From assembly GCA_004297655.1 (NCBI GenBank), contig SCUN01000109.1, forward strand, positions 1 to 37,967: a DNA stretch of 37,967 nucleotides. Reading direction: 5' to 3'. Under the pieces are notes generated by a model. The model was given only the letters and a program-made list of their open reading frames with translations. It was not told the DNA's origin and ran no database searches. Below, piece after piece: positions 12,226 through 37,210 of the stretch. Both the position numbers and the translations under genes were made by a program. Source of the DNA: Acidobacteriota bacterium (lineage in GTDB: Bacteria > Acidobacteriota > Vicinamibacteria > Vicinamibacterales > SCN-69-37). Numbering within the stretch: the stretch's first letter is position 1; each line of letters begins with the position of its first letter.

Positions 12226-12320
12226 TGGCGGTGAGGCAGGGATTCGAACCCTGGATAGAGCTTTAAAGGCCCTATAACGGTTTAGCAAACCGCCGCCTTC
12301 AGCCTCTCGGCCACCTCACC
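12226..12320 (-). tRNA. tRNA-Ser(GCU)
   Basis: Reverse complement GGTGAGGTGGCCGAGAGGCTGAAGGCGGCGGTTTGCTAAACCG...GGTTCGAATCCCTGCCTCACCGCCA; anticodon GCT; long variable arm; encoded CCA. Confidence 0.95.
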
Positions 12321-15669: not shown

Positions 15670-15679
15670 ATCAGAATAT
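15660..15679. promoter_or_regulatory. Putative ArsR operator 2 (ATATTCGCAAATCAGAATAT)
   Basis: 6-bp arms, overlaps the acr3 start codon; 34 bp from operator 1. Confidence 0.7.
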
Positions 15680-16730
15680 GAACCGTTTCGAGCGGTACCT
15701 CAGCCTGTGGGTGGCGATGTGCATGGGCGCCGGGGTCCTGCTCGGTCTCGCCGTTCCCGATGTGATGGGCGCGCTGCGCCGCCTCGAATTCGGCGCGGGC
15801 AGCCAGATCAACGCCCCGATCGCCGTGCTGATCTGGCTGATGATCACGCCGATGATGATGAAGGTCGACTTCGGCGCGATTCGCAATGTGGGCCGGCGGC
15901 CGCGCGGACTGCTCGTCACCCTGTTCGTGAACTGGCTGGTGAAGCCGTTTTCCATGGCCGCCATCGCCTGGCTGTTCTTCCGGTATCTCTTCAGCCCGTG
16001 GATCGCGCCGGCCGATGCCGATCAGTACATCGCCGGCTGCATCATTCTCGCCGCCGCGCCCTGCACGGCGATGGTCTTCGTCTGGAGCTACCTCACCAAG
16101 GGGGATGCCGCGTACACGCTGGTGCAGGTCGCCATCAATGATTTGCTGATGCTCCTGTTGTTTGCGCCGATCGTCACGTTTCTGGTGAGCGGCGCGGCCT
16201 CGCTTCACGTGCCGTTTCAGGTGTTGCTCTATTCCGTGCTGGTCTTCATCGTGGTGCCGCTCGCGGCCGGGGTGCTGATCCGTCTGTGGATGGTGCGATC
16301 GAAAGGGCGGAAGTGGTTTGAGGACGTGCTGCTGCCGCGATTCGCGCCGGTCAGCATGGCGGCGCTACTGGCCACGCTGGTGCTGATCTTCGCGTTCCAG
16401 GCGCACAACATCACGACGAAGACGCTGCACGTCGGCCTGATTGCCATCCCGATTCTGATCCAGGTGTATTTCAATGCCTCGCTGACCTACGGACTGATGC
16501 GGGTCTTCCGGGTGGAGCACGCCGTCGCCGCGCCGGGCGCCCTGATCGGCGCCAGCAACTTCTTCGAGTTGGCCATCGCAACCGCCATCGCCCTCTATGG
16601 GCCGGAGTCCGGCGCGGCACTGGCCACGGTCGTCGGCGTGCTGATCGAGGTGCCCGTCATGTTGTCGGTCTGCGCGGCCTGCAACCGGACGCAGCACTGG
16701 TTCCCGAGGCCGCCAATATATTCGTCTTGA
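15678..16730 (+). CDS. acr3: ACR3-family arsenite efflux transporter
   Basis: MNRFERYLSLWVAMCMGAGVLLGLAVP...LAAAPCTAMVFVWSYLTKGDAAYTLVQVAINDLLML. Confidence 0.95.
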   Translation: MNRFERYLSLWVAMCMGAGVLLGLAVPDVMGALRRLEFGAGSQINAPIAVLIWLMITPMMMKVDFGAIRNVGRRPRGLLVTLFVNWLVKPFSMAAIAWLFFRYLFSPWIAPADADQYIAGCIILAAAPCTAMVFVWSYLTKGDAAYTLVQVAINDLLMLLLFAPIVTFLVSGAASLHVPFQVLLYSVLVFIVVPLAAGVLIRLWMVRSKGRKWFEDVLLPRFAPVSMAALLATLVLIFAFQAHNITTKTLHVGLIAIPILIQVYFNASLTYGLMRVFRVEHAVAAPGALIGASNFFELAIATAIALYGPESGAALATVVGVLIEVPVMLSVCAACNRTQHWFPRPPIYSS

Positions 16731-16771
16731 CGAATGTATTGACCTCACGCTATATTCGCCAAATCGAATAT
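16718..16771. promoter_or_regulatory. Second putative ArsR operator pair with TTGACG-N18-TATATT promoter, upstream of arsM
   Basis: ATATTCGTCTTGACGAATGT (16718-16737) and ATATTCGCCAAATCGAATAT (16752-16771); -35 16727-16732, -10 16751-16756. Confidence 0.7.
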
Positions 16772-16783
16772 ATGGAGACCCCC

Positions 16784-17626
16784 ATGACCGACGCTACTAA
16801 CGCCGTTGACGTGACCCTGACCGAAACCGTGAAGGACAAGTACGGCGCCATCGCGCGCAAGGTCCGCACCGGCGAGAGCGAGAAAGCCTCCTGTTGCGGG
16901 CCGACCTGCTGCGGCGGCGGCGAGAAAGACGCCATTTCCGCCAACCTCTATTCCGACGCCGAGGCATCGGCCGTGCCCGAGACCGCCATGACCGCGTCGC
17001 TTGGCTGCGGCAACCCGACCGCGCTGGCCCAGCTTAAGCCCGGCGACGTCGTGCTCGACCTCGGCTCCGGCGGCGGCATCGACGTGCTGCTGTCCGCCAA
17101 ACGCGTCGGCCCGACCGGCAAGGCCTATGGCCTCGACATGACGGACGAGATGTTGGCGCTGGCCATGGAGAACAAGAAGAAGGCCGGCGCGACCAACGTG
17201 GAATTCCTGAAGGGCCACATCGAGAACATCCCGCTGCCGGCCAACACGATCGATGTGATCATCTCGAACTGCGTCATCAACCTCTCGGGCAACAAGGACC
17301 GCGTGATGGCCGAGGCCTTCCGCGTGCTCAAACCCGGCGGCCGCTTCGCGGTCTCCGACGTCGTCCGGTTGCGCGAGGTCCCGGATGATGTGAAGAAGAA
17401 CATGGAGCTGTGGATCGGCTGTGTCGCCGGCGCGCTGCAGAAGGACGACTACGTCGCGAAGTTGAAGGCGGCCGGCTTCACGGACATCGAGGTGGAAGTC
17501 ACGCGCGAGTACCGCGCGGCCGAGGCGCAGAGCTTCCTCGAGGCGTCTGGCCTGAACGTCGGTGACTACGCCGAGAAGATCGACGGCGCGTTCATCAGCG
17601 CCTTCATCCGCGCCCGCAAGCCGTGA
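16784..17626 (+). CDS. arsM: Arsenite S-adenosylmethyltransferase
   Basis: [12 protein letters not shown]...[11 protein letters not shown]...[36 protein letters not shown]...[12 protein letters not shown] 7 nt before ATG 16784. Confidence 0.95.
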
Positions 17627-18012
17627 AGCTGTTGTTTCTCTGCGTCGCCAACTCCGCCCGGAGCCAGATGGCCGAAGGCCTGGCCCGGGCGATGTTTGGC
17701 GATCGCGCCGAGGTCGCGAGCGCCGGCAGCGCGCCGGCGCGCGTCAACCCATTCGCGATTGCCGCCATGGCCGAGATCGGCATCGACATCTCGAACCACC
17801 GCTCGAAGTCGGTTGACGACGTCAGGGCCGGCGACTTCGACATGGTCATCACCCTCTGCGCCGACGAAGTGTGTCCGGTGGTGCCTGGCCGCGTGAAGCG
17901 CCTGCACTGGCCAATGCCCGATCCGGCGGCCGCGCCGCCCGATCAGGCGCCGGCGCGTTTTCGCGAAGTCCGGGACGCGATTCAATCCAAGCTGGAGTTG
18001 CTCAAGGCATAA
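17623..18012 (+). CDS. arsC: Arsenate reductase (LMW-PTP/thioredoxin-coupled type)
   Basis: [41 protein letters not shown]; 4-nt overlap with arsM. Confidence 0.93.
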
Positions 18013-18019
18013 TCTCGTC

Positions 18020-19915
18020 GTGCCAAGCACCAAGGGCCCGTCGGTGGTCCTTTTTTCCGGCGGCCGGGGCTCTGGAGCGCTCACCCGCCAACTGATCACG
18101 GCGCCATCGATCTCGTTGACCATCGCGATCAACGGGTATGACGATGGCGCGTCGACGGGGGAGGTGCGGCGGTTTCTCGCCGACGCGCTCGGCCCATCCG
18201 ATTTTCGGAAGAACGCATCCCGGCTGGCGTCCATTCTCGAAACCTGCTCGCCAGGGCTGATCGACGCGCTCGACCGGCGGCTGCCGGTCGGCGCCGTCGA
18301 GGCTGACGCGCGCCAGGCGTTGTTGGCGCTCAAGGTCGCGTATCCGGGCCTTGGCCTGGCGGTCGATCACTTTCTGGCCGACCTCGCGCGCGGCGGCCGG
18401 CCGTTCAACTTTTCCGATTGCAGCGTCGGCAACCTGATCTTCGCGGGCCTCTATCTGGAATGCGGACGCGACTTCAACCGCACGGTCGACCGATACGCGG
18501 CGCTCCTGGGACTCGATCCCGGTCTCATCGAAAACGTCACGGATGGCACGAACGCCTGGCTCATCGGGATTGACGCGACCGGCCGATTGCTGGCGAGCGA
18601 AGAAGAGCTGGTCGACTCCTCGCAGCCGAACACGGTTCAGGACATCTTCCTCATCGATCGTCCACTCTTGGCGGAGGAGCGCCGGGCGATCGAAGCGAAT
18701 CCCACCGATGCCGCCCGGCTTCTCGCGCCGCGAGCCGCCACCGTTTCCCTGAACCCGCGTCTGGCCGAACGCATCGCCGGCGCCGACCTCATCATCTACG
18801 CGCCCGGCACACAGCACTCCAGCTTGTTTCCCTCATACCTCACGCCCGGGCTGAGCGCGGCGATCGAAGCCAATCTCACCGCGCTGAAGGTCCTGGTCAC
18901 CAACATCCAGGCTGACGCGGAGATCACCGGCAGCAGTGCCGTCAACATCATCGACCGCGCGGTCTACTACCTGAAAGACCGAGGACGCCAAGCCACGCCG
19001 ACGCCCTGCCTGATCACGCACTACGTGATCAACGACTCGCGCACCCGCGCCTCCGAAGGTCCGTACGTCCCGCTCGGACCCGTCGACGCGATCGAAGACC
19101 AGCGTCTCGTGCGGATCGGCAACTACGAGGACGGCGTCACCGGACAACATGACGCCTTGCGCGTGCTCGCGCCGTTCATCGAGTCGATTCAGCGCCGCTC
19201 ACACCGGCGTCGGGTGGCCGTTCTGCTGCATGACGCGGGATCGATCAACAAAGTGGTGCAGACGCTGCTCGAGATGGTGCGGGGCGGCATCAGCGACGTG
19301 CCGCTCGACGTCGAAGTGTTCTACGCCGGCGCGGACACGCTCGATCCGGCGTTCGTGAAGCGCCTGCCATTCGGCGTGACGCGCCTTGCCGCCGACGGCG
19401 CGTTCGCCGCCGCCGCACGCGCGGGTCAGTTCGACTACGTCGTGCTCTTCGAATCGTCAGGCATGTATCGCGGCGAGAACATCGTGAGCCTCGCGCCGCA
19501 TCTGGCCGTCGGGCGCCTGGACGCCGTGTGGGGGAGCCGGCGATTGTCGGTGCGAGAGATCGAGGCGTCGTACAAGTTCCGGTATCACTCGAACGCGCTG
19601 GTCGGCGTGATCAGCTATCTCGGCAGCTACGTGCTGAGCCTCTCGTATCTCTTCCTGTATCGGCGCTACATCTCCGACACGCTATCGGCCGTGCGCGCCG
19701 TCCGAGCGTCGGATGCGCTCGACCCGTCGATCGACCTGACGCACCGGCGGGTGAATCATCTGTTGTTGGCGAAGCTGATGCGGCGCAAGGCAGACTTGCT
19801 GGAAATCCCAGTGCAGTTCATTCCGGTCTCGCCCGACAGCGTGAAACGGATCAGCGTGTTCGAGGGGATCGGATCGCTGGCCATGATCGTGTGGCGACGG
19901 ATCCGTCCGAAATGA
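18020..19915 (+). CDS. YvcK/CofD-like domain fused to a C-terminal GT2-like domain
   Basis: N-term VVLFSGGRGSGALTRQL, NGYDDGASTGEVRRFL..GPSDFRKN, CSVGNLIFAGLYL, APGTQHSSLFPSYLTPGL; C-term DAVWGSRRLSVREIEASYKFRYHSNALVGVISYLGSYVLSL..SDTLSAVRAVRA..EIPVQFIPVSPDSVKRISV. Confidence 0.82.
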   Translation: MPSTKGPSVVLFSGGRGSGALTRQLITAPSISLTIAINGYDDGASTGEVRRFLADALGPSDFRKNASRLASILETCSPGLIDALDRRLPVGAVEADARQALLALKVAYPGLGLAVDHFLADLARGGRPFNFSDCSVGNLIFAGLYLECGRDFNRTVDRYAALLGLDPGLIENVTDGTNAWLIGIDATGRLLASEEELVDSSQPNTVQDIFLIDRPLLAEERRAIEANPTDAARLLAPRAATVSLNPRLAERIAGADLIIYAPGTQHSSLFPSYLTPGLSAAIEANLTALKVLVTNIQADAEITGSSAVNIIDRAVYYLKDRGRQATPTPCLITHYVINDSRTRASEGPYVPLGPVDAIEDQRLVRIGNYEDGVTGQHDALRVLAPFIESIQRRSHRRRVAVLLHDAGSINKVVQTLLEMVRGGISDVPLDVEVFYAGADTLDPAFVKRLPFGVTRLAADGAFAAAARAGQFDYVVLFESSGMYRGENIVSLAPHLAVGRLDAVWGSRRLSVREIEASYKFRYHSNALVGVISYLGSYVLSLSYLFLYRRYISDTLSAVRAVRASDALDPSIDLTHRRVNHLLLAKLMRRKADLLEIPVQFIPVSPDSVKRISVFEGIGSLAMIVWRRIRPK

Positions 19916-19919
19916 GGCC

Positions 19920-20663
19920 ATGTCGCGACTGTTGATCATCCCGGCCGCGGGGCTCGGCACTCGTCTTGGATCCCCGTTGCCCAAGCTGCTCGTGCCGGTC
20001 GCTGGCGTGACGATGCTCGACCGCCTGCTGGACCTGTACGAATCCGTCGTCGACCGCGTCGTTCTGGTGGTGAATCCGTCGGCGGCGCCCGGTGTGGACC
20101 AGCATCTGCGATCGCGGACGCGGCGTCTACCGGTCGAGTGCGTGCAGCAGACGTCCCCGACGGGCATGCTCGATGCGATCCTTCTCGGCGTGCCGGCGGT
20201 CGCGGTGTATGAGCCGTCGAGCGTCTGGGTCACGTGGTGCGACCAGGTGGCCGTGCATCCAAAGACGATCGCCCGGCTTGCCGAACGAACGAGCGGCGCG
20301 TCGGCCGCGCTGGTCATGCCGACGGTGAGGTGCGAGCACCCGTACATCCACCTGGAGCGGGACGGCTCGAACCGCATCGTCCGTGTGCGGCACCGGCGTG
20401 AAGGCGACGCCATGCCGGATGCCGGCGAGAGCGACATGGGTTTGTTCGCGATGTCGCGAGTGGCGTATCTGGAGTGGCTGCCGAAGTACCTGGCCGAAGC
20501 CGAAGTCGGCCGCCAGACGGGCGAACGTAATTTCCTGCCGTTCATCGTCTGGGTCGATCGGCACGCCAAGGTCGAGACGTTCCCATGCGAAGACCCGATG
20601 GAAGCCATCGGGATCAACACGCCGGACGATCTGGCGCGCGTCGAACGCTACTTGACGCGATAG
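19920..20663 (+). CDS. Nucleotidyltransferase (GT-A NTP-transferase family, sugar-nucleotide pyrophosphorylase-like)
   Basis: LLIIPAAGLGTRLGSPLPKLLVPVAGVTMLDRLLDLY..., VTWCDQVAVHP; 4 nt after the fusion gene. Confidence 0.85.
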   Translation: MSRLLIIPAAGLGTRLGSPLPKLLVPVAGVTMLDRLLDLYESVVDRVVLVVNPSAAPGVDQHLRSRTRRLPVECVQQTSPTGMLDAILLGVPAVAVYEPSSVWVTWCDQVAVHPKTIARLAERTSGASAALVMPTVRCEHPYIHLERDGSNRIVRVRHRREGDAMPDAGESDMGLFAMSRVAYLEWLPKYLAEAEVGRQTGERNFLPFIVWVDRHAKVETFPCEDPMEAIGINTPDDLARVERYLTR

Positions 20664-22663
20664 ACGCCGACGTCGCCGCTGCGAAAGACCTCTTCGAATT
20701 TCGCCGGATCCTTGTCGAACACTTCCTCGCCCTTCCCAGCCTTGCGCTCCACGTCGTCTTCATACACGTAGTCCACGCCGAGCTGTTTGGCGATCGCCCA
20801 CGCGGCTGCGGCGTCGGTCTGAGCGAACATCGAGTCGGCTAGTTGCGACTGCGTGTCGTACGCCCTCGTGTGCATCATCGAGATGGGCAGCCCGGCGGCC
20901 ATCCGCCGTTCAGCCCAGGAAGGCACGAGGCTCCAGGTCCACCGGCCGCGCGGCACAGGGTCCATCTGCACGATCGCGTCCTTCGGCGTATGCGTTCGGA
21001 TCCAGGCAAAGACGGCCTGCTGATCGCGGGAGATGACGATGGTGAACGGGAAATCTCCGGGACTGACGCTGAAGTTGTGAATATCCTGCGCGTTGTACTC
21101 GTCGATCGCCAACGTCGGCGCGCCAGCCATCAGCGTCAGCGCCACGACGACTCCAACCACGCGGCGACGTCCCTGATCCAGGCCGGTGGCGATGAAGCGC
21201 GCCGCCAGCGCCGGCAGGACGAGCAGCAGCAAGTGGCCGGCCCTGAATCCCACCCAGTACAGATCCATCGAGAGCCGCACGAAGTACATCGCGATAAGCG
21301 CGAGCACGATCAGGGCGAGATACGGAAAGAAACGCCGCAGCGGGAATTGCGGCGCGGGCCAGCATCCAGCGCCGGCGATCCACAACGCCGGCCCGAGCGA
21401 AACCAACAACGCCGTCACGGGATGGTGCAGCGACTGATCCGTGAAGCCGAACGCCAGCGCGCCGCCGGCGCCTTCGACCATGTGATTCGTGACCAGCCAG
21501 CCGATCGCCGCGAGGACCGGCGCAATCACGATGAACTGGCCGAGGACGTTTCTCACCGGCGACGGCTCGCGCACGGCGTCGAAGACGAAGGATGCGCCGT
21601 AGGCGAGCGCGAACAGGCCGCCGACGAGCGGGCTGTAGAGCACGGAACCGGCGAGCGCGAGGCCCATCATCAAGCTTGCGATCCGGCTACCTCGGCTGCC
21701 GATCGCCGCCACGCCGACGATCGCCACCAGGCCGAGCGCGTACGCCATCGAATGCTGCGGCACGTACCAGATGCTTCGCTGCAGCCCGTCGATTCGATAG
21801 CCGCCCAACGCCCAATTCGCCACGGCATCAATATTCACGTTCTTCAACGTCGCCATCGGCTGATGCGTGTACCAGAGTCCAACAATGGCCGCGAGACCCT
21901 CCGCGCTCGATGCGACGAGCGCCAGCCCGACCGCCGTGGCCGCCGCGCCGGCCCGCGGGACGACGACCCAGGTGGCGAGGAAGATCGTCGACATGAGCAG
22001 CAAACCGGTGATCAGCGCGTTCAGCTTCAGGCACCGCTGAATGTCCTGCAGGGCCGCGGGACCGGTTCCGGCGATGGCAGCCGGCACAACGAAGTACGTC
22101 CAGTAGTAGTGGATTTCATTTCCGGCCAGAAACGGATTCTGCGCAGGCAGCTCGAATTTCTTCAGCTCGGCCGTCAGCGCCGCGTGCCACACGAAGTCCG
22201 CGGTGAAATACGCGCGATAGTAACGGTTGCCTTCCTTGTCGGCCCAACCGACGTTCGCGAGCGGCGGCACGGCCACGGCGAGCGTGAGCAGCAACACGAG
22301 CAGCAGCGACGTCGTGGACGCGCGCGTCCATTCGGGCAGGGAAATGAGCGGGCGACGAATCGGGCGGAGCAGGATCCAGACGAGGAGGCCGATCAGCGCG
22401 ACGGCGGCGACAAACCACGCCCACGTCGCGCGGTGCGCGGCGATCGCGGCCCAGAGCGCGAGGTTCGCCAGCGTGTAGCCGAAGAGCGCGCCTGCAATCC
22501 AGCCGGCCGCATGCCGGCGGCCGAACAGGGCGAAGCCGATGCGGAATCCAGGCGCGACCGCGCCCAGGTAGACGAAGGCATAGAGCCAGCCGGAGCTGCC
22601 ATCACCCAGGATCCACAAAGACGCCGCGACGAGCAGGACGAAGAGTGCCAGGCAGGCACGCAT
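20648..22663 (-). CDS. Large multi-TM membrane protein, possibly GT-C-like
   Basis: About 12+ hydrophobic segments plus C-terminal soluble domain; motif NPFLAGNEIHYYWTYFV; no confident family. Confidence 0.7.
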   Translation of the reverse strand: MRACLALFVLLVAASLWILGDGSSGWLYAFVYLGAVAPGFRIGFALFGRRHAAGWIAGALFGYTLANLALWAAIAAHRATWAWFVAAVALIGLLVWILLRPIRRPLISLPEWTRASTTSLLLVLLLTLAVAVPPLANVGWADKEGNRYYRAYFTADFVWHAALTAELKKFELPAQNPFLAGNEIHYYWTYFVVPAAIAGTGPAALQDIQRCLKLNALITGLLLMSTIFLATWVVVPRAGAAATAVGLALVASSAEGLAAIVGLWYTHQPMATLKNVNIDAVANWALGGYRIDGLQRSIWYVPQHSMAYALGLVAIVGVAAIGSRGSRIASLMMGLALAGSVLYSPLVGGLFALAYGASFVFDAVREPSPVRNVLGQFIVIAPVLAAIGWLVTNHMVEGAGGALAFGFTDQSLHHPVTALLVSLGPALWIAGAGCWPAPQFPLRRFFPYLALIVLALIAMYFVRLSMDLYWVGFRAGHLLLLVLPALAARFIATGLDQGRRRVVGVVVALTLMAGAPTLAIDEYNAQDIHNFSVSPGDFPFTIVISRDQQAVFAWIRTHTPKDAIVQMDPVPRGRWTWSLVPSWAERRMAAGLPISMMHTRAYDTQSQLADSMFAQTDAAAAWAIAKQLGVDYVYEDDVERKAGKGEEVFDKDPAKFEEVFRSGDVGVYRVK

Positions 22664-22714
22664 TGCGCGGCTACTCTACCCGCGCGCGCGTGCCGCTGAA
22701 TTACTATTTGATAA

Positions 22715-26275: not shown

Positions 26276-26872
26276 ATGATCAACCGGCGGTCGTTGTTGA
26301 AGCTCGGCGGCGCGGTGCTGGCGTGGCGGCCCTTCGCGCGATTCAGAGTGCTGGCGCAGGCGGCGCCGGCCGCAGCCTTCACCCAGGATCAGATCAAGGC
26401 GCTCTTCGGCATCGCCGAGGTCGCGCTGCCATCTGCTGTCGATGCGGACGGCCGCGACGGCGCGGTGCGAAAGTTCGTCGCCTGGCACGTGAACTACCGT
26501 GAAGGCGCCGATATGGGTCACGGCTACGGCAACTCCACGCTGCGCCCGAAGTCCGGACCGCCCGTAGCGCCCAGATATTCGGCGCAATTTGCCTCGCTCG
26601 ACCAGGCCGCCCGCGCACAGGGCGCCGCGTCATTTGCCGCGGCGCCGGCGGCGGTCCGGCGCTCGATTGTCGAGGCGGCGCTCAACGCGCCTACGCCGAT
26701 CAACAGGCTGCCGGCGCGGCCGACCGGCGCGAATCTCGTCGCGGACTTTACGGGCATGTATTTCAATAGCGCCGGCGCGTTTGATCTTGCGTATCAGGCC
26801 GCGATTGGCCGGGACGACTGCAGAGATCTCGAAGGCTCGGATCAGCCGCCCGCGCCGATTGGAGGCCGATGA
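26276..26872 (+). CDS. Gluconate 2-dehydrogenase subunit 3/GDH gamma-like TAT-signal protein
   Basis: MINRRSLLKLGGAVLA Tat leader; small protein coupled (ATGA) to a GMC oxidoreductase. Confidence 0.65.
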   Translation: MINRRSLLKLGGAVLAWRPFARFRVLAQAAPAAAFTQDQIKALFGIAEVALPSAVDADGRDGAVRKFVAWHVNYREGADMGHGYGNSTLRPKSGPPVAPRYSAQFASLDQAARAQGAASFAAAPAAVRRSIVEAALNAPTPINRLPARPTGANLVADFTGMYFNSAGAFDLAYQAAIGRDDCRDLEGSDQPPAPIGGR

Positions 26873-28467
26873 TGCAAGCCAAACGCACGGTCTCGGCGGA
26901 CTACGTGATCGTCGGCGGCGGAATCACGGCCGCGATGGTCGCCCAGAAGCTCAGCGACCTCAAGCCCTCCGCGTCCATCATCGTCGTCGAAGCCGGATCA
27001 CCGTTGTTCGATGCGGACAATCGATTCAACTACCGACAGCGAAGCCTCGATTACGGCGAGAACCAATGGCCCGGCGATTTCGTTGCGGATCAGGCGCCCG
27101 ACGGGATGATTTCCCGAACGATGGCCGTCGGCGGATCCGCGCTCCATTGGGGTGGCGTCTGCAACCGGTTCTCGGAAGAAGACACGCGACTCAAGTCGCT
27201 CTACGGTCTGGCGGCCGACTGGCCGCTCGAGTGGAAGGATCTCGAGGCGTTCTATTGCGAGGCGGAACAGCGGATTGGCGTGTCGGGCGAACCGAGTCCG
27301 CTCAAAGAGGATTGGCGCAGCCAACCCTACCCGATGCCGGCGATGACGCCGACGTTCAACCTGAAGCAGCTCAAGACCTGGGCCGAGAAAAGCGGGATTC
27401 CGTTCTGGACGACGCCGCAAGCGAAGAACACGGTTGAGGGGTACGGCGGCCGTAGCAAGTGCCACCGCTGCAACACGTGCGAGATCTGCCCGACCGGCGC
27501 GCGGTACTCGCCTGATTGGACATTCAAACAGCTGATCGCCGACAAGAAGCGCCGGGTCGAACTGCACTCGAACACGCTCGTCCGAAAACTGGTTCTCGAC
27601 GACAGGTCCACGCGCGTCGTTGCGGCGCAGGCGGTGAACGAGACCGGCGCCGGCCAGGAAGTCGAGTATCGAGCGAAGACGTTCGTGATTGCCTCGGGGT
27701 ACGTCTGGAGCGCGCACCTCCTCCTCAATTCGGCCGAGGCGCGGTTTCCCAACGGGCTCGCCAACAAGACGGATCAGGTCGGCCGCTATATCAACGGACA
27801 CCTGGCGTTCCAAACGCAGATCGACCTCGACGTCAAGATCTTCCCCGGCATGAACGAACAGCACAGCCTCATCTCACGACAATTCTTCCGATGCGCCGCC
27901 GACAAGCCGTACGTTCGGCACGACCTGCGCGTGTGGGAGAGCGCCAGCGGGCGCGAGCCCCGGCTGAGAGACGCGGCCGGGAAGCTCCTTCTGGGTGACG
28001 ACCTGCTGAACGAATGGCGCACCCGGACGCGTCGAGGTTCAGCGCGCGTGCGCGGGTACTTCACCGTCGAGCCCGACCGCGAGAGCCGGATCACGCTCGA
28101 CCCGTCCCGGAAGAACCGTCATGGCGATCCGATGCCGGTCGTGCGCCACAAGATCGACGCGGCGAGCGAATCGCGCATGGCCGCGACACGAACGCATTTT
28201 GAGACGGTCTTCGCGCAGTTGGCGAAAGCGAATGACGGCCGGATGGGCGGCATCAGCGCGCTGAACTACCAGGATCACCCGGCCGGCGGCTGCCGCATGG
28301 GCGCCGACCCCAACACCAGCGTCGTCGATTCCTACGGCAGGACGCACGATCACGAGAATCTGTTCGTGGTGGGATCGCCGACGCTGCCGACCGGCGGGTG
28401 CACCAACGGCACGCTCACATTCGTGGCGATCGCGCTGCGCTCCGTGCAGCGGATCGCCAGCGCCTAG
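26869..28467 (+). CDS. GMC-family FAD oxidoreductase with Cys cluster motif
   Basis: DYVIVGGGITAAMVAQKL, GGSALHWGGVCNRF, SKCHRCNTCEICPTGARYSPDWTF, GGCRMGADPNTSVVDSYGRTHDHENLFVVGSPTLPTGGCTNGTLTFVAIALR. Confidence 0.9.
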   Translation: MMQAKRTVSADYVIVGGGITAAMVAQKLSDLKPSASIIVVEAGSPLFDADNRFNYRQRSLDYGENQWPGDFVADQAPDGMISRTMAVGGSALHWGGVCNRFSEEDTRLKSLYGLAADWPLEWKDLEAFYCEAEQRIGVSGEPSPLKEDWRSQPYPMPAMTPTFNLKQLKTWAEKSGIPFWTTPQAKNTVEGYGGRSKCHRCNTCEICPTGARYSPDWTFKQLIADKKRRVELHSNTLVRKLVLDDRSTRVVAAQAVNETGAGQEVEYRAKTFVIASGYVWSAHLLLNSAEARFPNGLANKTDQVGRYINGHLAFQTQIDLDVKIFPGMNEQHSLISRQFFRCAADKPYVRHDLRVWESASGREPRLRDAAGKLLLGDDLLNEWRTRTRRGSARVRGYFTVEPDRESRITLDPSRKNRHGDPMPVVRHKIDAASESRMAATRTHFETVFAQLAKANDGRMGGISALNYQDHPAGGCRMGADPNTSVVDSYGRTHDHENLFVVGSPTLPTGGCTNGTLTFVAIALRSVQRIASA

Positions 28468-37136: not shown

Positions 37137-37210
37137 TGGCTGGGACGCAGGGATTCGAACCCCAATAAGCAGAGTCAGAGTCTGCTGTCCTACCGTTGAA
37201 CGACGTCCCA
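37137..37210 (-). tRNA. tRNA-Gln(CUG)
   Basis: TGGGACGTCGTTCAACGGTAGGACAGCAGACTCTGACTCTGCTTATTGGGGTTCGAATCCCTGCGTCCCAGCCA; anticodon CTG; encoded CCA. Confidence 0.95.

Follow-up and report, generated by a model that had tools for sequence, protein, structure and literature searches.

A CofD/YvcK-like protein fused to a probable pseudo-glycosyltransferase and paired with a GlmU-type nucleotidyltransferase in Acidobacteriota: a possible polyprenyl-phosphate-sugar glycosylation module

Introduction

Two members of a small protein superfamily have been studied, CofD and YvcK/GlmR, and the superfamily is known for forming a phosphodiester in F420 synthesis and for binding or making UDP-GlcNAc. 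A locus of an Acidobacteriota bacterium (assembly GCA_004297655.1) raises the question of what such a domain does when it is joined to a glycosyltransferase-like half and encoded beside a nucleotidyltransferase (NTase). An earlier note on this DNA had proposed that the NTase makes an NDP-activated compound that one or both halves of the fusion use. We followed this proposal in the window, a stretch of 37,967 nucleotides that is one entire contig (SCUN01000109.1; G000:C183) of a genome 82% complete in 362 contigs, and in related genomes.

Results

A fusion gene found in Acidobacteriota

The fusion protein (18020..19915, + strand) has 631 amino acids and starts with GTG 7 bases downstream of the arsC stop. 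Its single open frame contains each of the motifs quoted in the earlier note, and the NTase gene (19920-20663) begins after a gap of 4 nt. The frame is a real gene, since more than 20 other genomes have homologues, the majority of them full-length. Relatives are Acidobacteria bins, some designated Vicinamibacteria or Luteitalea, and profile searches, which covered Acidobacteriota, placed the fusion in 20 of the 162 genomes of the order. When the window protein served as query in a peptide-pattern scan of genomes from every phylum, the only matches were Acidobacteria-type bins and one bin without a stated phylum. Carriage of the module by plasmids or viruses was rejected, as no plasmid record and no viral contig matched. 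One homologue (L020:1093-3007) is broken into two frames of 435 and 232 aa by a frameshift or assembly error, and another (L055:8974-10980, genome G306; hereafter L055) is divergent, with 31% identity overall. The fusion passes no NCBIfam family cut-off. Among open-licence papers we found none on such an architecture and none that joins CofD-like, YvcK, glycosyltransferase, and fusion, in agreement with the view that no characterised pathway or described family has this arrangement. The predicted structure is of moderate confidence (pLDDT 77), weakest at residues 296-376.

The N-terminal half is a divergent CofD/YvcK domain

Residues 9-340 (18044..19039, + strand) match the Pfam family CofD (PF01933; E=1.2e-14, 54.6 bits, gathering cut-off 30), as do all 16 aligned fusion homologues, and a full-length alignment to acidobacterial YvcK reaches about residue 385. 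Foldseek placed the predicted model nearest to YvcK BH3568 (2o2z, E=1.1e-13) and then to CofD (3c3d, E=9e-7). The N-terminal half is thus a divergent member of the CofD/YvcK superfamily, as had been proposed. The NCBIfam model that ranks first for the window copy is the GAK-system CofD-like TIGR04357 (74-77 bits, cut-off 340), and the YvcK/GlmR model TIGR01826 scores 47-50 bits, below its cut-off of 196. True YvcK proteins of other Acidobacteria reach 299-354 bits on the same model, so the low score reflects real divergence. F420_cofD (TIGR01819, cut-off 257 bits) matched none of the 16 N-terminal halves.

Asp41-Asp42 of the YDDG motif (18140..18145, + strand), a proposed metal/nucleotide site, is invariant in 16 of 16 homologues and corresponds to D40/D41 of Listeria GlmR when mapped through the BH3568 alignment. 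The PSDFRKN motif (18194..18214, + strand) aligns with PGDIRN of YvcK, and its D61, R63, K64, and N65 are invariant. The metal ligands of FbiA are D45 and D57 (PMC7253369); by extrapolation to FbiA numbering, Asp61 is likely the counterpart of the second, D57. After PSDFRKN, some tens of residues are inserted relative to YvcK, roughly where a mobile segment of FbiA (residues 69-102) helps to form the Fo pocket (PMC7253369), which favours, without proving, an enzyme with an acceptor pocket. Almost all positions of the PGTQHSSLFPSYLTPG motif (residues 262-277; 18803..18850, + strand) are invariant. The GlmR proteins of Listeria, S. aureus, and B. subtilis convert GlcNAc-1-P and UTP to UDP-GlcNAc, and mutation of D40/D41/N198 lowers this uridyltransferase activity about 100-fold (PMC10128056). 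In the fusion, the two aspartates are kept and N198 (Listeria numbering) is replaced by an invariant Ser272. The C-terminal RHD arginine of YvcK varies among the homologues (R/Q/L/H/T). The UDP-GlcNAc site of B. subtilis YvcK/GlmR comprises Y265/R301.

Two loci of other Acidobacteriota (L035:598-2844 and L033:1198-3459) encode another enlarged CofD/YvcK protein of ~750 aa; its CofD domain covers 65-454, and a C-terminal part nearly 300 aa long has no annotation.

The C-terminal half resembles a DPM-type GT2 without its catalytic motifs

The GT2-like domain spans residues about 397-628 (19208..19903, + strand). In the window copy it matches no Pfam family, and Glycos_transf_2 (PF00535) matched only one of the 16 homologues, L055; a PDB profile search with this half gave no match by sequence. 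By BLAST it is 22-28% identical to GT2 genes of related loci, and Foldseek with the predicted model returned ArnC (E=4e-7), DPMS (3e-6), and GtrB, pointing to a GT2/DPM fold. In an alignment of the C-terminal halves with intact GT2s from their own clusters, YNEE, DDGSxD, DxD, GFELDHE, and RSxxEGKKI were absent from 15 of 16. ESS or DSS occupies the DxD position and unconserved letters the DDGSxD position, both of which the same-locus intact GT2s keep. In the window, FESSGMY (residues 477-483; 19448..19468, + strand) replaces the metal-binding DADLEY motif of active GT2s, and this type of replacement is kept with small changes in 15 homologues. LFESSGMYRGED and GSRRLS are strongly conserved.

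This half is therefore best read as a conserved pseudo-glycosyltransferase bearing LFESSGMYRGED. Its predicted relationship to polyprenyl-phosphate GT2 enzymes is upheld by Foldseek, BLAST, and L055, and an active GT2 was rejected because the catalytic motifs are lost. L055 passes the CofD and Glycos_transf_2 Pfam cut-offs within one frame, retains GGSTD and has a single Asp where DxD would stand, and has a GT2 half with a mean identity of 34% to intact GT2s versus 22% to the other fusion C-terminal halves. It is likely an intermediate between active and dead GT2, and the simplest history would be that a GT2 became joined to the CofD-like part, then lost its catalytic function and acquired a new conserved surface.

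A GlmU-type nucleotidyltransferase co-occurs with the fusion

The second gene (19920..20663, + strand) encodes a stand-alone NTase of 247 aa that matches PF12804 (E=3.7e-21), is similar to GlmU (9dqf) across its full length (E=9.5e-20), and keeps Lys22, Gln77, Asp108, and Asn233. K22 and D108 are invariant among homologues, and Q77 nearly so. The catalytic residues of GlmU are K25, Q76, and D105 in GlmU numbering (PMC10128056). Fold-wide similarity and the catalytic K/Q/D thus identify a GlmU-type domain, bearing out the assignment of this gene as an NTase.

We surveyed the 162 genomes of the order for the NTase family, defined by at least 160 bits on its own profile. It was found in 19 of the 20 fusion genomes and in none of the 142 fusion-free genomes; the 20th fusion genome (G324) has a contig-end fragment beside the module GT2. 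Module NTases score 338-405 bits (206 in G306), versus 60-84 bits for GlmU of the same genomes, and the remaining matches, at 60-84 bits, are mostly GlmU-sized frames. Co-occurrence persists at loci where kilobases separate the two genes or where they are encoded on different strands. The more similar two fusion proteins are, the more similar their NTases tend to be (correlation of pairwise identities, r=0.80), to which genome relatedness also contributes. The absence of the NTase from related fusion genomes had been named as an outcome that would speak against a module; with 20 of 20 fusion genomes versus 0 of 142 others, co-conservation holds and a functional link between the two genes is supported. 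In three of 22 loci (L017, G267, and G296), a beta-phosphoglucomutase-family HAD gene lies between fusion and NTase (L017:10119-10769, L053:8652-9299, and L054:8348-9007), which points to a sugar phosphate as the NTase substrate.

The module extends to membrane glycosyltransferases

The third gene of the cassette (20648..22663, - strand) is convergent, overlaps the NTase end by 16 bases, and encodes a membrane protein of 671 aa. Its predicted structure (pLDDT 84, pTM 0.90) has the fold of GT-C glycosyltransferases, with Foldseek matches to the C-mannosyltransferase DPY19 (5e-8), STT3 (2e-7), AftA (2e-6), and ArnT. No family cut-off was reached; a homologue matches Chlor_Arch_YYY (TIGR03662) weakly, at 38 bits.

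These three genes are exactly the content of a 4.7-kb block (18013..22714) between arsC and gltX. Genome comparison showed that the block is absent from the same-genus genome G001, where 9 nt separate the arsC stop from the gltX ATG, and in G003 arsC and gltX are also adjacent. Neither genome has the fusion, so gain of the cassette in the lineage of the window would be a simpler reading than loss elsewhere. A recent acquisition marked by odd composition was rejected, because the block does not differ from its flanks in GC or GC3. Arsenic genes lie directly upstream of the fusion (15678-18012) and encode an ACR3-type transporter (SBF family), an ArsM-type methyltransferase, and an ArsC-type (LMWPc) reductase. 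A link with them was likewise rejected, as arsC adjoins gltX without the cassette in G001, and at the remaining fusion loci surveyed glycan genes take the place of arsenic genes, so that the adjacency was seen in the window alone. Elsewhere in the window, a gene for a small protein precedes one for a GMC oxidoreductase (26276-28467), a pair resembling a two-subunit dehydrogenase unit, and there are genes for tRNA-Ser(tga) (2642-2731), tRNA-Ser(gct) (12226-12320), and tRNA-Gln(ctg) (37137-37210).

A neighbourhood survey covered 22 fusion loci. The NTase is present in 21 of the 21 readable loci and an intact DPM-type GT2 in 19 of 20, the window being the exception. Fifteen of the 22 loci have a homologue of the window GT-C; some of the seven others carry GT87 instead. 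A flippase-like LPG_synthase_TM protein occurs in 10 loci and a radical SAM protein, below every listed NCBIfam cut-off, in 11 (L047:11360-12520 and 10 others). Further neighbours are GT87, AftB-like, and PMT-type proteins, which are also GT-C-type families, GT4, and a polysaccharide exporter. At a module-specific threshold of at least 395 bits, the GT2 is confined to fusion genomes, of which 16 have it; a split copy and a divergent copy come in addition. In G319 the module GT2 lies in two pieces (L089:3041-3701), and G358, in which no fusion was found, has a fragment resembling the module GT2. The module GT2 was not found in the window genome (82% complete), whose best GT2 is a general one at 195 bits. 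The two-gene module first proposed is thus right as to the pair of fusion and NTase and too small as to the unit, which includes the GT-C in the window and the intact DPM-type GT2 elsewhere.

Discussion

A proposed route and its alternatives

GT-C and DPM-type enzymes are known to use polyprenyl-phosphate carriers, and the genes can therefore be laid out as a path from sugar-1-phosphate through NDP-sugar and lipid-linked sugar to a glycoside outside the membrane. On this path the fusion would come after the NTase and before the membrane steps. That the fusion locus is a lipid-linked sugar module we regard as probable. More tentatively, and at somewhat less than an even chance, we propose that it is a so far undescribed module for polyprenyl-phosphate-sugar glycosylation, which may build sugar-bearing lipids or surface sugars. 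The NDP-sugar of the NTase would be handled by the CofD-like half, and the dead GT2 half would dock to the lipid-sugar machinery.

We infer the reactions and the docking role from the observed gene content, linkage, folds, and kept or lost motifs. The NTase, with its catalytic residues kept, would convert a sugar-1-phosphate to an NDP-sugar, which the CofD/YvcK-like half of the fusion would take up. The Asp41/42-Asp61 site would probably carry out Mg-dependent chemistry at the sugar-bearing phosphate, and a CofD-type transfer, in which a hydroxyl or phosphate of the acceptor receives the phospho-sugar, would release NMP; such a catalytic role is plausible, and we hold it with less than even confidence. 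The GT2 half lacks the residues needed for sugar transfer, so the NDP compound is used at most by the CofD-like half, which narrows the original suggestion of one or both domains. The GT2 half may instead be a docking part for the carrier lipid or for the module's intact GT2. Loading of the sugar on polyprenyl phosphate would fall to the intact DPM-type GT2, or in the case of the window perhaps to a different GT2, and the GT-C protein would transfer the sugar outside the membrane.

Several results argue for this proposal: the NTase co-occurrence, the module-specific GT2, the GT-C fold and the further GT-C-type families nearby, the correlated identities, the invariant equivalents of GlmR D40/D41 with an FbiA-like second Asp, the loss of GT2 motifs, and the arsC-gltX block. 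Against it count the loading step in the window genome, which has no module GT2, and the difficulty of finding a task for a catalytic CofD half at loci whose intact GT2 would already do the lipid loading. The Ser at GlmR Asn198, the seven loci without a window-type GT-C, and the moderate model confidence weigh on the same side.

We favour, though tentatively, a catalytic N-terminal half with a docking pseudo-GT2; a GlmR-like sensor or scaffold comes next and is less likely. Here the CofD/YvcK-like half would only bind NDP-sugar and the dead GT2 half would switch or channel the NTase and the true GT2, with no chemistry. GlmR/YvcK, the nearest solved fold, is a regulator that binds UDP-GlcNAc and in doing so switches its partner (PMC7525490). 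A dead GT2 half suits a protein-protein role, and the GlmU-like NTase belongs to the pathway that GlmR serves. However, the Asp residues of the catalytic members are invariant, as in an enzyme, and the RHD arginine, possibly part of the UDP-GlcNAc site, is not.

Two further readings are unlikely, each to a similar degree. The CofD-fold enzyme might itself make lipid-linked sugars, using NDP-sugar from its NTase to place sugar-phosphate on a polyprenol-type acceptor, with NMP as the leaving product and the dead GT2 holding the lipid; if so, lipid-linked (phospho)sugars would have a CofD-fold route in addition to those through membrane phosphoglycosyl transferases and through DPM-type GT2s. Alternatively, the half might act as an accessory nucleotidyltransferase that, like Listeria GlmR, makes NDP-sugar from NTP and sugar-1-phosphate beside the NTase. 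Synthesis of UDP-GlcNAc by GlmRs (PMC10128056) and the two kept Asp residues speak for this, but the N198 position is an invariant Ser, and a dedicated NTase with the full catalytic set is always there, which would make a second one redundant.

A bifunctional enzyme whose GT2 half works through a new active-site motif is more doubtful still: LFESSGMYRGED and GSRRLS are conserved and L055 has GGSTD and one DxD-position Asp, but 15 of 16 copies have none of the five catalytic motifs and 19 of the 20 readable loci also encode an intact GT2. F420-type cofactor synthesis, in which the NTase would take the part of CofC and the CofD half that of CofD/FbiA, is very improbable and was rejected: the pairing and the PF01933 match recall CofC/CofD, but TIGR01819 matches no N-terminal half, the NTase is GlmU-like rather than CofC-like, the neighbours are glycan genes, and the model for CofH of Fo synthesis (CofH/FbiC; TIGR03551) stayed below cut-off in eight of eight fusion genomes while control genomes passed. 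The sub-cut-off matches are likely menaquinone-type paralogues.

Comparison with known systems

Both halves of the fusion and all of its partners belong to known folds; what is new is the CofD/YvcK branch and the conserved gene module. The fusion shares with YvcK/GlmR (TIGR01826; BH3568, 2o2z) the fold (TM 0.71 by target length), a full-length alignment, and the DDGxSxG, P-x-D-x-R-N, GN, and PG(S/T) motifs. It differs in a T-to-R change in the GGxG loop, in N198 to Ser, in the extra stretch after Asp61, in its junction to a pseudo-GT2, in its glycan-cluster context, and in its score far below the family cut-off (47-50 bits against 196). With CofD/FbiA (TIGR01819, PF01933) it has in common the PF01933 match, likely the same metal Asp pair, an NTase partner, and extra residues following the second Asp, at about the place of the mobile FbiA segment; unlike CofD/FbiA, it is fused, leaves TIGR01819 unmatched, has no CofH, has a GlmU-like NTase, and is clustered with glycan genes. 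The GAK-system CofD-like protein (TIGR04357) is the best NCBIfam model for the window half, yet its cut-off is unmet and no GAK partner genes were recognised among the scanned neighbours.

The C-terminal half has the fold of DPM-type GT2s (ArnC, DPMS, GtrB, AglJ, and PpgS) without their catalytic motifs, whereas the separate GT2 of the clusters is a normal member. The NTase resembles the uridyltransferase domain of GlmU over its full length and in the catalytic K/Q/D/N residues but has no acetyltransferase half. The GT-C protein shares its fold with DPY19, STT3, AftA, and ArnT while reaching no family cut-off. The fusion would thus be a further, tightly defined branch of the CofD/YvcK superfamily, tied to polyprenyl-sugar glycosylation and with a built-in pseudo-glycosyltransferase. 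Its partner set of NTase, GT2, and GT-C suggests concrete substrates and could reveal a role of the CofD/YvcK fold beyond F420 and cell-wall control.
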